The translations under genes were made by a program, and so were the position numbers. This document shows, one piece after another, positions 18,806 to 23,734 of a stretch of DNA of 64,000 nt. Location of the stretch: NCBI RefSeq assembly GCF_030503895.2, contig NZ_CP129970.2:372001-436000 (forward strand). Direction: 5' to 3'. Origin of the DNA: Marivirga arenosa (GTDB taxonomy: Bacteria; Bacteroidota; Bacteroidia; Cytophagales; Cyclobacteriaceae). The notes beneath the pieces were generated by a model that was given only the letters and a program-made list of their open reading frames with translations, ran no database searches and was not told the DNA's origin. Numbering within the stretch: position 1 is the first letter of the stretch; every line of letters begins with the position of its first letter.

Positions 18806-19876
18806 ATGAAGATAAAAAATTGGTATTCTGATAAGAAACCCTGGATTATAACAGGGCCTTGTAGTGCAGAAACTGAGGATCAATTACTTGACACCGTTAC
18901 ACAATTGGTAGATAATGGATTTGATACTATAAGAGCTGGAGTATGGAAACCTAGAACTCGGCCAAATAGCTTTGAAGGAGTTGGGGAAATTGCTTTCCCT
19001 TGGATAAAAAAAGCAAAAGAAAAATTTCCTCATATTCAATTTGCAATAGAAGTAGCTTCAGCTGAACACGTTGAATTAGCACTTAAAAATGATATTGATA
19101 TTTTATGGGTTGGGGCCAGAACCACCGTTAATCCCTTCAATGTTCAAGAAATAGCCGATGCTGTAAGAGGTGTTGAGGATAAACCAATTTTAATTAAAAA
19201 TCCCATCAACCCTGATTTGGCATTATGGATGGGAGCATTAGAAAGATTTGATGCGGTAGGGATAAAAAAACTGGGTGCGATCCATCGTGGATTTTCTACA
19301 TATCAAGAAAGTATTTATAGGAATATTCCTTTATGGCAAATCCCTATTGAATTAAAATCAAACTTTCCTGATTTACTATTAATTAATGACCCTAGTCATA
19401 TTGCTGGCAAAAGAGAACTACTATTTGAAATTGCTCAAAAAGCGATGGATTTACAGTATGACGGATTAATTATAGAGTCTCACCGATCACCTAACGAAGC
19501 CTGGAGTGATGCTGCTCAGCAATTAACTCCTAAAGCATTGAAAGAGATGCTTGACTCTATAAAAATTAGAGAAAAGAGTTTCCCAAATAAAGATTTTAAA
19601 AACGAGTTAGAAGGGATTCGAGATCAAATAGATGAAACGGATAAAGAATTATTAGAAGTTCTATCAAGAAGACTTGAATTGGTTAAAAAGATTGGGCAAT
19701 ATAAAAAAGAGAAAAACGTAGCCATTTTCCAATTAGATCGATGGAATAAAATCATTGAAAACAGACCAGTATGGGCTAAAAAATTACATTTAGATGCAGA
19801 TTTTATAAAATCAATCTATCAAGATATCCATGATGAATCTATAAGAATTCAGACAGAAATATATAATGAAGAATAA
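18806..19876 (+). CDS. DAHP synthase / chorismate mutase fusion, copy 1
   Basis: 356 residues. Residues 1-265 are a class I-beta DAHP synthase that joins phosphoenolpyruvate and erythrose 4-phosphate (GPCSAETE, RAGVWKPRTRP, GARTTVNPF, KNPINPD, IHRGF, DPSHIAGKRE). Residues about 272-356 are an AroQ-type chorismate mutase (DQIDETDKELLEVLSRR ... DRWNKI ... HDESIR), converting chorismate to prephenate. The fusion is standard in Bacteroidota; the mutase domain can bring prephenate feedback onto the synthase. All active-site residues I can place are intact. The 3' end overlaps the prephenate-dehydratase-like gene by 11 bases, so the two form an operon. Paralogue at 21317-22420. Confidence 0.95.
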   Translation: MKIKNWYSDKKPWIITGPCSAETEDQLLDTVTQLVDNGFDTIRAGVWKPRTRPNSFEGVGEIAFPWIKKAKEKFPHIQFAIEVASAEHVELALKNDIDILWVGARTTVNPFNVQEIADAVRGVEDKPILIKNPINPDLALWMGALERFDAVGIKKLGAIHRGFSTYQESIYRNIPLWQIPIELKSNFPDLLLINDPSHIAGKRELLFEIAQKAMDLQYDGLIIESHRSPNEAWSDAAQQLTPKALKEMLDSIKIREKSFPNKDFKNELEGIRDQIDETDKELLEVLSRRLELVKKIGQYKKEKNVAIFQLDRWNKIIENRPVWAKKLHLDADFIKSIYQDIHDESIRIQTEIYNEE

Positions 19877-20425: not shown

Positions 20426-20968
20426 TTATTCTGATTCTAAAATATCTTTTAAATTTCCTAAGCCGTATTCAAAATCTGCTCCTAGCATGGCATCAAAATC
20501 CATAGTTAGCAATAGTAAATTCATCGGATAATCCATACTCCCTTCAAATCCCCATATTACTTTTGTTTTTCCAGCTTCTATTTCTTCAACTGCCATATAG
20601 GCCATTTCAGTGGATTCAAATGGCTCAATAAATCTTAATTCTGTTTCTACTCTTTCCCCTTCTATAATTTTAGTAATTTCTTGCTCTCCTTTACCTAGTT
20701 CTTCATTATCGCTATCCCAAGCTGAAACAAAACCAACCTGTCCGTCAGTACCTGAAAATGATTTTTTCATATTAGGATCAGCACTTGCCCACCTACTCCA
20801 ATTATCCTGATTCTTTAAATACTTTATGTATTCGAAGACTTTATCTTTCGGTTCATTAACTATTATCTCTCTTTCAACTGCATAATCATTTTCAGCTACT
20901 GCAGCAATTAATAGTAAGGCTACAATAATTGCAACAACTGTAAATCCTATAATTTTTAAAACTTTCAT
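20426..20968 (-). CDS. SRPBCC family protein (polyketide cyclase-like)
   Basis: 180 residues: an N-terminal transmembrane anchor (about 5-24), then a START/SRPBCC domain beginning with the typical EREIIVNEPKDKVFEYIKYLKNQDNWSRW and continuing with VIWGFEGSMDYPMNLLLL. Such domains form a deep hydrophobic pocket and bind lipids or small hydrophobic molecules; no specific ligand can be assigned. It is transcribed against the aromatic genes around it and is probably unrelated to them. Confidence 0.85.
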   Translation of the reverse strand: MKVLKIIGFTVVAIIVALLLIAAVAENDYAVEREIIVNEPKDKVFEYIKYLKNQDNWSRWASADPNMKKSFSGTDGQVGFVSAWDSDNEELGKGEQEITKIIEGERVETELRFIEPFESTEMAYMAVEEIEAGKTKVIWGFEGSMDYPMNLLLLTMDFDAMLGADFEYGLGNLKDILESE

Positions 20969-21121
20969 GATAATGGCATTAAATTAAAACCTATACTAAT
21001 GTAATTAATTATCGGTAAAATCTTATAATCTGCAGAAGATAATTACCGCCAAATATAAAAGCTAACAAACGTTAGATAGATAAATATTTCATCTATTATT
21101 ATATTTTTTATAAAATTTTAT

Positions 21122-21152
21122 TTTGTTTTAAGAAAATCGAATTATACATTTG
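21122..21152 (+). promoter_or_regulatory. Promoter of the aromatic attenuator
   Basis: TTTG (21122-21125), exactly 19 bases, TACATTTG (21145-21152): a perfect match to the Bacteroidota TTTG-N19-TAnnTTTG promoter. Initiation a few bases after 21152 would fall at or right beside the ATG of the leader peptide at 21157, so the leader may be translated from a leaderless or nearly leaderless RNA. Confidence 0.75.
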
Positions 21153-21156
21153 AAGC

Positions 21157-21237
21157 ATGAGAAATTTACAAGGACAATTTTATTTTTACTTTTATTATAG
21201 CCCGCTAAAGCGAGTTGGTCCTTGTCATGATATGTAA
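21157..21237 (+). CDS. Phe/Tyr leader peptide of the attenuator
   Basis: A 26-residue ORF whose codons 8-14 read Phe-Tyr-Phe-Tyr-Phe-Tyr-Tyr, followed by S-P-L-K-R-V-G-P-C-H-D-M and TAA at 21235-21237. Seven consecutive Phe and Tyr codons just before a gene making the Phe/Tyr precursor is the classical design of an amino-acid-sensing leader, as in E. coli pheL. The ribosome would stall here when charged tRNA-Phe or tRNA-Tyr is scarce. The RNA pairings in the next entry support that role. Too short to be an independent protein of known function. Confidence 0.85.
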   Translation: MRNLQGQFYFYFYYSPLKRVGPCHDM

Positions 21238-21290
21238 CTACTAAACTAAATCATACTACAAGCCCGATTCGCAAGAGTCGGGCTTTTTTT
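21168..21290 (+). promoter_or_regulatory. Transcription attenuator (segments 1 to 4)
   Basis: Segment 1, ACAAGGAC (21168-21175), pairs perfectly with GTCCTTGT in segment 2 (21218-21225). Segment 2 can instead pair with segment 3: GCGAGTTGG (21210-21218) with CCGATTCGC (21264-21272), nine pairs including two G-U, then CTTGT (21221-21225) with ACAAG (21258-21262). That helix consumes the 5' arm of the terminator formed by segments 3 and 4. A ribosome stalled on the Phe/Tyr codons covers segment 1, frees segment 2 and favours antitermination. A ribosome that reaches the stop codon covers segment 2, and the terminator forms. Confidence 0.8.
21261..21290 (+). terminator. Attenuator terminator
   Basis: AGCCCGATTC (21261-21270) pairs with GAGTCGGGCT (21275-21284), 10 pairs with one G-U and a GCAA tetraloop, followed by seven T. 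It ends 26 bases before the start codon of the second DAHP synthase fusion. Confidence 0.92.
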
Positions 21291-21316
21291 ATGCTCAAAA
21301 ACTTAATTAGAAATAT

Positions 21317-22420
21317 ATGAATACACTTAAAATGAAAAATTGGGGACTTGGCTTAGGCAAACACGTAATTATTGCCGGCCCTTGTTCGGTTGAAACTGAA
21401 AAACAAATTGATGATTTATGCAATAGCTTTGAGCGCGAACCTCAGATAGGAATGTTCCGTGCAGGCATATGGAAGCCAAGAACCCGACCTGGTAATTTTG
21501 AAGGACTTGGCGACCAAGCCTTACCCTGGCTTCAAAAGGTTAAAAATCGTTTAAACATACCCGTATGTGTTGAAGTAGCCAAAGCGGCTCATGTAGAATC
21601 CGCTTTAAAACATGGTATTGATGTTTTATGGATTGGAGCAAGAACTACTGTAAATCCTTTTTCTGTGCAAGAAATTGCTGACTCACTTCAAGGAGTTGAC
21701 ATACCTGTAATGGTTAAAAATCCAATAAATCCTGACTTAGCATTATGGATAGGAGCCTTAGAAAGAATGAATAAAGTGGGGATAAATAAACTAGCTGCTA
21801 TTCATAGAGGCTTTGCAGATCCTTACGACAAAATATATCGCAATAAACCTAATTGGAATTTAGCGATGCAGCTTAAATTAGAATTACCCGATTTAGAAAT
21901 CATTAATGACCCTAGTCATATTGCAGGAAAGTCTGAAATGATTTTTGATGTAGCACAAAGAGCATTGAATTTCGGAATGGATGGCTTGATGATAGAAACG
22001 CATCCTAATCCGGAAGCAGCTTGGTCAGATGCTCGACAGCAATTAAATCCTGAGCAATTATTAACCATTCTAAAAGAAATCTCTTTTAGAGAAAGAATTG
22101 ATTTTGAAAATCAGATTCCTGAAAATTTAAAAGAAATGAGAGAATCTATCGATCATATTGATCAAAAACTAATAGATTTACTTTCAGATCGATTTCATTT
22201 GATTGATCAAGTAGGTGCATACAAAAAAGCTCACGATTTATCGGTTTTTCAAGGCGGCAGATGGCAAGATGTTTTGGACAGTAGAACGAAACTAGGTATA
22301 AAAAAAGATATGAGTGAAAAATTTATGAAGAGCTTACTCATTGCAATCCATGATGAATCAATCAAAAGGCAAGAAAAACAAATTGCAAACGAGGCTGTAG
22401 AGCCTTTAACTATTATATGA
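21317..22420 (+). CDS. DAHP synthase / chorismate mutase fusion, copy 2
   Basis: 367 residues, same layout as copy 1: DAHP synthase (GPCSVETE, RAGIWKPRTRP, GARTTVNPF, KNPINPD, IHRGF, DPSHIAGKSE) to about residue 265, then an AroQ chorismate mutase (SIDHIDQKLIDLLSDR ... GRWQDVLDSR ... HDESIKRQ). Catalytic residues appear intact. This copy is the one under the Phe/Tyr attenuator, so it is probably the paralogue tuned to Phe and Tyr supply. Its stop codon overlaps the aroB start by 4 bases, so aroB is translationally coupled and shares the control. Confidence 0.95.
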   Translation: MNTLKMKNWGLGLGKHVIIAGPCSVETEKQIDDLCNSFEREPQIGMFRAGIWKPRTRPGNFEGLGDQALPWLQKVKNRLNIPVCVEVAKAAHVESALKHGIDVLWIGARTTVNPFSVQEIADSLQGVDIPVMVKNPINPDLALWIGALERMNKVGINKLAAIHRGFADPYDKIYRNKPNWNLAMQLKLELPDLEIINDPSHIAGKSEMIFDVAQRALNFGMDGLMIETHPNPEAAWSDARQQLNPEQLLTILKEISFRERIDFENQIPENLKEMRESIDHIDQKLIDLLSDRFHLIDQVGAYKKAHDLSVFQGGRWQDVLDSRTKLGIKKDMSEKFMKSLLIAIHDESIKRQEKQIANEAVEPLTII

Positions 22421-23433
22421 GTAAAGTATATTTTAAAAACATTGGTTTTATAAGTAGCATTTTATCTAAAACAGATTTTTCAAAACTCTTTGTTTTAGTA
22501 GATGAAAATACACATAAGCATTGTTACCCTTTAATAACTGAACATATAGGGAAACATACTATAATTCAAATAAACTCAGGTGAAAAAAATAAAACTCTAG
22601 AAAGTTGCACTCATATTTGGAATTCCCTGACTGAGGCACAAGCAGACCGGAGAAGTTTATTGATTAATCTTGGTGGTGGAGTAATTACAGATATGGGTGG
22701 ATTTTGTGCCGGAACCTATAAAAGAGGTATAAAATTCATCAATATTCCTACTACACTTTTAGCACAAGTAGATGCAAGTGTAGGTGCTAAAACTGGAATA
22801 GATTTTAACGGTTTTAAAAACCACATTGGGCTATTCTGCAATGCAGAGGCTGTATTAATTGACTCTTTATTTCATGAATCATTAGATGAAAGGCAACTAA
22901 AATCCGGCTTTGCTGAAATGTTAAAACATGGATTAATTGCTGATTTAAAGCATTGGAATGAATGTTTAAATCAAGGTTATAAAACTGTAGATAATCAATT
23001 AATTAAAAAATCAGTTGATATTAAAAAGTCAGTGGTAGAGGCTGACCCGCAAGAAAAGGGATTAAGAAAAATATTAAATTTTGGTCATACCATAGGGCAT
23101 GCTATTGAATCTCATTTATTAAGTTCTGAAAATGAATTACTACATGGCGAAGCCATTGGTAATGGAATGATAGCAGAGGCTTTTTTAAGCTTTAAAAAAG
23201 GATTCATTTCTTCTGAAGATTATATGTTAATCAAAGGTGAACTGAGTAAGTTATATGATAAACCAAAAATAAAAAAAGCCTCTTTTGATGAATTAAAAGG
23301 GCTTTGTTTGCAGGATAAAAAAAATGATAATGGTAAACTCAATATGAGCTTATTAAAAACATTAGGCCAGGCTACTTACGATATAGAGATTGATGGAATT
23401 TTACTTGAAAGTGCCTTAAATGAAGTATTATAA
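22417..23433 (+). CDS. aroB: 3-dehydroquinate synthase
   Basis: 338 residues. Second step of the shikimate pathway, DAHP to 3-dehydroquinate, NAD and divalent metal dependent. NAD-binding SGEKNKTLE and GGGVITDMGGFCAGTYKRG are clear, as are the IPTTLLAQVDASVGAKTGID strand and the metal ligands in the FAEM-like AEMLKHG, LNFGHTIGHAIE and HGEAIGNG motifs. Starts within the end of the preceding fusion gene (ATGA overlap) and overlaps the convergent YtxH gene by 6 bases. Confidence 0.95.
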   Translation: MSKVYFKNIGFISSILSKTDFSKLFVLVDENTHKHCYPLITEHIGKHTIIQINSGEKNKTLESCTHIWNSLTEAQADRRSLLINLGGGVITDMGGFCAGTYKRGIKFINIPTTLLAQVDASVGAKTGIDFNGFKNHIGLFCNAEAVLIDSLFHESLDERQLKSGFAEMLKHGLIADLKHWNECLNQGYKTVDNQLIKKSVDIKKSVVEADPQEKGLRKILNFGHTIGHAIESHLLSSENELLHGEAIGNGMIAEAFLSFKKGFISSEDYMLIKGELSKLYDKPKIKKASFDELKGLCLQDKKNDNGKLNMSLLKTLGQATYDIEIDGILLESALNEVL

Positions 23434-23661
23434 TTTTACTTTTTTTCGAAATGTTCTAGCGCTATGTAAAGCAGAATCACTAATATCATTGAACCAATCG
23501 GTATTAATATTTTCCTGTGTTTCTTTTTTGATATTGCGTAATCTGTTTACTACGTTTTTCTTTACTTTTTTACCATTTTTACTGCTAAGAAAAGCTCCAG
23601 CAGCCACTACTGTTGCAGCTCCAGCTAGAAAAGAAAAAATTGATTTACTCGTTGCACTCAT
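23428..23661 (-). CDS. YtxH domain protein
   Basis: 77 residues. A short hydrophobic, Ala/Gly-rich segment (about 7-27) is followed by the signature SSKNGKKVKKNV and a basic helix, which together define YtxH-like small membrane-associated proteins often linked to general stress. It faces aroB and overlaps its last codons. I prefer this strand over the overlapping plus-strand frame because of the recognisable YtxH pattern. Confidence 0.8.
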   Translation of the reverse strand: MSATSKSIFSFLAGAATVVAAGAFLSSKNGKKVKKNVVNRLRNIKKETQENINTDWFNDISDSALHSARTFRKKVKL

Positions 23662-23734
23662 ATAGTATAATTTTAAAGTTGATAAGAATTAAACGCTGAA
23701 GAAATAAAAACAGTTTAAATTATTTAAGATTATT

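Follow-up and report, generated by a model that had tools for sequence, protein, structure and literature searches.

A conserved Phe/Tyr-rich leader, very probably a transcription attenuator, precedes a DAHP synthase/chorismate mutase gene in Marivirga arenosa and its relatives

A leader that precedes a DAHP synthase/chorismate mutase gene in Marivirga arenosa is very probably a ribosome-mediated transcription attenuator, which would sense charged tRNA-Phe, and possibly charged tRNA-Tyr, and control the DAHP synthase/chorismate mutase-aroB transcript. Comparison among relatives strongly supports its reading as an attenuator: the leader stands before 87 of 89 orthologous genes, its RNA arms pair better with their own partners than with those of other leaders, and in the main group of leaders the variation within the Phe/Tyr run falls mostly on third codon positions. 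Each component has precedent, namely the switching logic of pheL and trpL, leader peptides that are leaderless, and a Phe/Tyr leader before a DAHP synthase gene. The attenuator is thus of a familiar type and well supported by the comparison, and the predicted placement of its start codon at +1 is unusual and conserved.

Results

Throughout, the window is the whole 64-kb stretch of M. arenosa DNA that was analyzed; positions are counted from its first nucleotide, and the features of the leader and of the genes it precedes lie on the forward strand. Read directly from the sequence, a TTTG (21122-21125), which we take to be the -33 element of a Bacteroidota sigma-A promoter, is followed after 19 nt by the -7 element TACATTTG (TAnnTTTG; 21145-21152), by the four nucleotides AAGC and by an ATG at 21157. 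The Bacteroidota sigma-A promoter pattern (TTTG, about 19 nt, TAnnTTTG) is thus found here in the perfect form that had been noted, and the 64 kb contain a single instance of the strict pattern TTTG-N19-TAnnTTTG-N4-ATG, where 0.01 would be expected. The ATG opens an ORF of 26 codons (21157-21237; MRNLQGQFYFYFYYSPLKRVGPCHDM, then stop), and its translation confirmed that codons 8-14 (21178-21198), the putative control codons, are all Phe or Tyr. Arm 1, ACAAGGAC (21168-21175), has its partner at 21218-21225, which is also part of arm 2, GCGAGTTGGTCCTTGT (21210-21225), the 5′ arm of the predicted antiterminator. Arm 3, ACAAGCCCGATTCGC (21258-21272), is the 3′ arm of the antiterminator and overlaps the 5′ arm of the terminator, so that the pairings are mutually exclusive. 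The intrinsic terminator (helix 3:4; 21260-21290) consists of a stem at 21260-21285 with a loop of 4 and of seven T at 21284-21290; the T run had been correctly noted, whereas the stem, first counted as 10 pairs, was computed to hold 11. One terminator was found at this place, whereas shuffled sequences averaged 0.0 (sd 0.2).

Downstream of the leader lie the presumed target of regulation, a DAHP synthase fused to chorismate mutase (paralogue 2; 21317-22420), then aroB, encoding 3-dehydroquinate synthase (22417-23433; TIGR01357 above cut-off) and overlapping the preceding gene by 4 nt, an 81-codon ORF (23420-23665) with no Pfam or NCBIfam match, and aroA. Named relatives of the window protein at 79-90% identity were four Marivirga records and one unclassified Bacteroidetes metagenome-assembled genome. 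The window holds a second DAHP synthase/chorismate mutase gene at 18806-19876, which is 50% identical and has prephenate dehydratase behind it. By eye, no such leader was found in the 89-nt divergent gap upstream of this paralogue, and control of the paralogue by the leader was rejected on that ground. The leader stands before the aroB-linked member of the two paralogues.

If the element is functional, the same leader should precede this gene in related genomes, as the original prediction proposed. In a sample of 246 genomes of the host family (Cyclobacteriaceae), drawn from a larger group, we took every DAHP synthase/chorismate mutase match to the window protein at E <= 1.6e-128 (89 loci) together with 10 chosen next-weaker matches, still weaker matches being left out, which gave 99 regions; the cut that separates the 89 from the 10 was set after the result was known. 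The scan called for at least five Phe/Tyr codons in eight, and a leader was counted when a TAnnTTTG box with at most one mismatch lay 0-12 nt upstream. Ties were resolved toward ORFs with a box, and the 4-nt gap was no criterion, any distance from 0 to 12 nt being permitted. A Phe/Tyr-rich leader ORF behind a Bacteroidota-type promoter was found at 87 of the 89 loci, in 87 genomes and 28 genera (counted by hand), and in all 87 it is followed by an intrinsic terminator with a hairpin and a T run. None of the 10 weaker matches has the leader, and the two boxless hits among them (L112 and L113) look like chance. The -7 element is exact in 72 of the 87 leaders and has one mismatch in 15; the -33 element is exact in 66 and has one mismatch in 21, although a one-mismatch -33 match carries little weight on its own because the scan tolerated spacings of 16-23 nt.

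The two remaining orthologues were inspected individually. In L068, from a draft genome, a box with one mismatch, the 4-nt gap, arms 2-4 and the terminator are seen by eye, with the frame broken inside the Phe/Tyr run, which we attribute to decay or a sequencing error; L098, which adjoins a contig end, is without a leader. As a contrast set we scanned the upstream regions of 67 more distantly related DAHP synthase/chorismate mutase genes, of which 66 belong to other families in the class. These gave one weak boxed match, which lies 428 nt from its gene and is probably due to chance (L124), and three Phe/Tyr-rich ORFs without a box; L122, which has no box and lies 160 nt from its gene, might be a real leader.

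The 87 leaders contain four to eight Phe/Tyr codons each (mean 7.7), and the rest of the peptide diverges. Phe exceeds Tyr, with means of 4.8 and 3.0 codons per leader and minima of three Phe and one Tyr. The nearest case in function is the AroR/aroF attenuator of Corynebacterium glutamicum (Neshat et al. 2014, as described in PMC11802643 and PMC4046766), in which a leader peptide with both Phe and Tyr codons likewise precedes a DAHP synthase gene and ribosome stalling raises transcription. AroR, likened here by its description, differs in belonging to another phylum and in carrying only Phe-Tyr-Phe, and the window gene differs from aroF in its fused chorismate mutase and in the aroB downstream. 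AroR answers to limitation of Phe and not of Tyr, and this, together with the excess of Phe codons, makes it a serious possibility, though not the one we favor, that the leader is the same attenuator sensing Phe only, its Tyr codons acting as spacing or the supply of Tyr tracking that of Phe. Against this stand the Tyr codons present in every one of the 87 leaders, which make up four of the seven control codons in the window, and the position of DAHP synthase, which feeds both end products.

The box ends 4 nt before the start codon in 74 of the 87 leaders and 5 nt before it in 10; the other three have gaps of 6, 7 and 8 nt. An exact box at precisely the 4-nt distance precedes 62 of the 87 leaders but none of the other 957 ATGs in the 99 regions; tolerating one mismatch gives 74 of 87 and 9 of 957. 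In Flavobacterium psychrophilum, the TAnnTTTG box lies at -12 to -5 (PMC9723704). If this register applies, a gap of 4 nt makes the A of the leader ATG (21157 in the window) position +1, and the leader is therefore predicted to be fully leaderless, which sharpens the "near-leaderless" start originally proposed. A start further upstream, with the box near the ATG being fortuitous and the attenuator itself real, is improbable. It would agree with the rarity of leaderless mRNAs in F. psychrophilum (5.5%; PMC9723704) and of 5′ UTRs under 10 nt in Bacteroides thetaiotaomicron (about 3.7%; PMC7366714), with the preference of our scan for boxed ORFs, and with the control, in which 137 of the 957 unrelated ATGs had a box, exact or one mismatch off, at a distance of 0-12 nt. 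Against such a start stand the 62 exact boxes at exactly 4 nt, a strict pattern that is hardly expected by chance in the window, and the more distant boxes of Phe/Tyr leaders before pheA in other families.

Those pheA leaders came from a class-wide set of 16 pheA loci, nine of which have a Phe/Tyr-rich candidate leader with a terminator. In five of the nine the closest exact box lies 12-32 nt upstream; in two more there is only a box with one mismatch, at 8 or 18 nt, and the last two show none at such short range. The contrast is blurred by L239, a weaker tenth candidate, in which a box with one mismatch sits 4 nt upstream. Leaders for other amino acids in the host family likewise start near the box: His leaders have a box at 9 of 12 loci with a gap of 6-10 nt, and Trp leaders, present at 12 of 12 loci, have a listed box at nine with a gap of 5-15 nt. 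Of the window's 39 ORFs with 150 aa or more, 9 have an exact box no more than 120 nt away, at distances of 5 to 85 nt. Placement of the start codon at +1 may therefore be a trait of the DAHP synthase leader in the host family, and the candidate leaders before pheA may possibly represent the ancestor of the window's leader. We also observed that some of the pheA candidates (L236-L249) carry Trp in the run, as in YFWFYYYFF of L245.

We next consider the RNA helices. The whole window leader folds at -43.5 kcal/mol (z -4.8), with none of 200 shuffles as good, and the terminator alone (z -7.0) accounts for much of this score. The stretch 21211-21272, which would remain uncovered if a ribosome stalled at codon 14, has the antiterminator 2:3 as its minimum free energy (MFE) structure (-14.6 kcal/mol, z -3.0, none of 200 shuffles as good). 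Over the 87 leaders, the 2:3 duplex has a median of -18.5 kcal/mol, and in 65 of them at most two of 200 shuffles were as good; because this test ended arm 2 at the stop codon, it penalized leaders with an early stop (L065, L066, L085 and L091). In a well aligned set (alignment A2), which holds 51 hand-chosen leaders of the 83 distinct ones (87 minus four duplicates) and leaves out the most divergent, 96.2% of 612 cells of helix 2:3 are paired and its covariation score was reached by none of 500 shuffles, although two-sided change is confined to one pair, a result equalled by 370 of 500 shuffles. For helix 3:4, 99.6% of 510 cells are paired, and its two pairs with two-sided changes were matched by 3 of 500 shuffles.

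Helix 1:2 (21168-21175 with 21218-21225) is the weakest element of the attenuator. It is present in the MFE structure of the window leader, but the leader ORF alone, which contains it, is unremarkable (z -1.37; 19 of 200 shuffles as good), and over the 87 leaders its median z is -1.15, with at most two of 200 shuffles as good in only three. On a MAFFT alignment it is 67% paired, a slid version has the higher covariation and some subgroups are out of register; a single alignment gave nothing usable for this helix. The arms were also compared with swapped partners, a test better suited to divergent leaders, using a longer stretch of arm 2. Among 12 divergent representatives, own arms paired better than swapped arms both for 1:2 (-13.5 against -9.9 kcal/mol, p 0.0002) and for 2:3 (-15.8 against -13.2 kcal/mol, p 0.0008), kinship being ignored in both p values, and sets of 22 and 39 representatives gave the same direction. 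Only for 5 of the 12 representatives with 1:2, and for 4 of the 12 with 2:3, did the own partner rank first. By the swapped-partner comparison, the check for helix changes across relatives came out positive. Of the two alternative helices proposed from the window, 2:3 is the predicted fold of the freed RNA, whereas 1:2, present in the window fold, is favored by the swapped-partner comparison and weak against shuffles.

A ribosome reaches about 12 nt downstream. In 75 of the 87 leaders, 11 or 12 nt separate the end of the last Phe/Tyr codon from the antiterminator arm, and because this distance is close to the reach of the ribosome, one stalled in the run would bare arm 2. The comparison thus points to an antiterminator that uses the 5′ arm of the terminator and could be freed by a stalled ribosome.

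Such a mechanism requires that the run be read as codons. In the main group, taken as 43 leaders without gaps, mean variation across the run is 0.000 at the first codon position, 0.031 at the second and 0.105 at the third; eight Marivirga rows, with few changes, show 0.000, 0.071 and 0.018 and no third-position excess. The run is made up of 344 TTT, 149 TAC, 108 TAT and 70 TTC codons over the 87 leaders, and its length differs between Marivirga and the main group by six bases, that is, two codons. In related genomes, hisG and trpE are preceded by His and Trp leaders, which are followed by the same kind of layout. A short ORF with a run of end-product codons thus lies between the promoter and the structural gene, and its translation is predicted. 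That the run is instead an unstructured linker or a binding site, in a terminator switch that senses a protein or ligand, is very unlikely: the run is U-rich, lies within the 1:2 loop in the window and lacks third-position bias in the Marivirga rows, but the third-position variation of the main group, on which we rejected a U-rich linker, the codon tally, the two-codon length difference and the Trp and His codons that replace Phe/Tyr before trpE and hisG all argue against it.

Discussion

Taken together, these data suggest the following mechanism for the attenuator. Transcription would begin on the A of the leader AUG, and a ribosome would load once the 5′ end emerges. When Phe and Tyr are plentiful, the ribosome would pass the FYFYFYY codons to the stop codon at 21237 and cover arm 2, leaving arm 3 to fold with arm 4 and transcription to end at 21290. 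When the aminoacyl-tRNA is short, it would stall in the run with its front edge about 12 nt downstream, where arm 2 begins, and arm 2, left free, would capture arm 3 before arm 4 is made, so that the polymerase continues past the terminator. An untranslated leader would form 1:2, making termination the default. We infer the start site, the stalling and the amino acid response of the leader.

In E. coli pheL, a leader peptide with Phe codons is combined with 1:2/2:3/3:4 logic and an intrinsic terminator. The window leader is predicted to share these features and differs in its target gene, in having Tyr codons beside Phe codons, in the position of the control codons within the 1:2 loop and in its predicted leaderless start. 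The Rfam family Phe_leader (RF01859) scored 19.6 bits on the window leader (E 0.56), below its gathering cut-off of 55, and no Rfam leader family reached its cut-off there, so that we rejected a known Rfam element. The pheL/trpL logic originally proposed accordingly holds as a description of function and not as family membership. Bacteroid-trp (RF01692) serves as a trp leader. It had no match in the window at the gathering threshold and none in 21050-21350 up to E 10; the element is among those of Bacteroidetes in Weinberg et al. 2010 (PMC2864571).

Transcripts that begin at the ATG of a leader peptide, as predicted for the window, are described for trpL (rnTrpL) of Sinorhizobium meliloti (PMC7298713), and several leader peptides of Streptomyces lividans are described as transcribed leaderless (PMC8079986); these leaders carry Trp, Leu, Ile and other codons, belong to other phyla, and the passages that describe them contain no Phe/Tyr case. 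Closer to the host, strong clues for leader peptide attenuation at amino acid operons including hisG, and a conserved 5′ element at pheA, are reported for F. psychrophilum (PMC9723704). Like the window's leader, these are Bacteroidota elements at amino acid operons, although the conserved element stands at pheA rather than at DAHP synthase, and the passages on it give neither a leader sequence nor a leaderless start. A literature search, with subscription papers largely outside it, found no report of the window's leader, nor of any Bacteroidota attenuator that is leaderless. The main text of Naville and Gautheret 2010 (PMC2965389) does not contain the terms bacteroidetes, flavobacteri, cytophaga, aroF, aroG or pheA. 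The comparative attenuation study of Lopatovskaya et al. 2010 (cited in PMC4833913) may cover Bacteroidetes, and we claim no priority over it.

The leader offers a concrete and readily testable attenuator in Bacteroidota, whose 87 natural variants reveal the conserved parts, and it illustrates how one enzyme paralogue may have its own end-product control. If its start is truly at +1, it would allow the coupling between leaderless initiation and transcription to be studied in a natural setting. Translation start in Bacteroidota does not rely on Shine-Dalgarno sequences. A fuller scenario, which we put forward tentatively and consider doubtful as a whole, is that of a truly leaderless dual Phe/Tyr sensor throughout the family, whose start codon is fixed at +1 and whose ribosome loads on the nascent 5′ end without a Shine-Dalgarno sequence and becomes coupled to the polymerase before the terminator about 130 nt downstream. 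This sensor would have arisen by rewiring an older pheA attenuator with a 5′ UTR, such as those of other Bacteroidia, and moving it to a duplicated DAHP synthase, with, in most Marivirga, the addition of a PaaR-like operator that links it to phenylacetate catabolism.

The putative operator is a palindrome, CTAACAAACGTTAG, at window positions 21062-21075 (contig 393062-393075), 46 nt before the -33 box. Among 10 Marivirga genomes, six have the perfect palindrome CTAACGAACGTTAG at the same place, two (that of the window and one of the same species) are one base off, and two are without it. The pattern CTAACRAACGTTAG recurs exactly at two further sites of the window's genome; the gene behind each site has weak TetR-family matches, and at one of them this gene is followed by paaA of phenylacetate catabolism. 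The perfect palindrome CTAACGAACGTTAG fits the PaaR consensus CNAACGNNCGTTNG (PMC6651687), and aromatic catabolism may thus act on the leader region or on the divergent gene at 20426-20968.

Leaders for other amino acids in these genomes gave further observations. A scan for Leu/Ile/Val leaders before ilvD gave only a weak match with a TTG start, at 1 of 16 loci. The window's genome has no ilvD (PF00920) match, which is present in all 11 other genomes searched, and branched-chain amino acid auxotrophy is a possible consequence. Finally, two consecutive attenuators precede trpE in all four Marivirga examined (L209-L212), and both have a WWW leader peptide and a terminator of their own, the leaders starting at about 670421 and 670295 on the minus strand in the window's genome, whereas trpE of all eight other genera examined has one attenuator.
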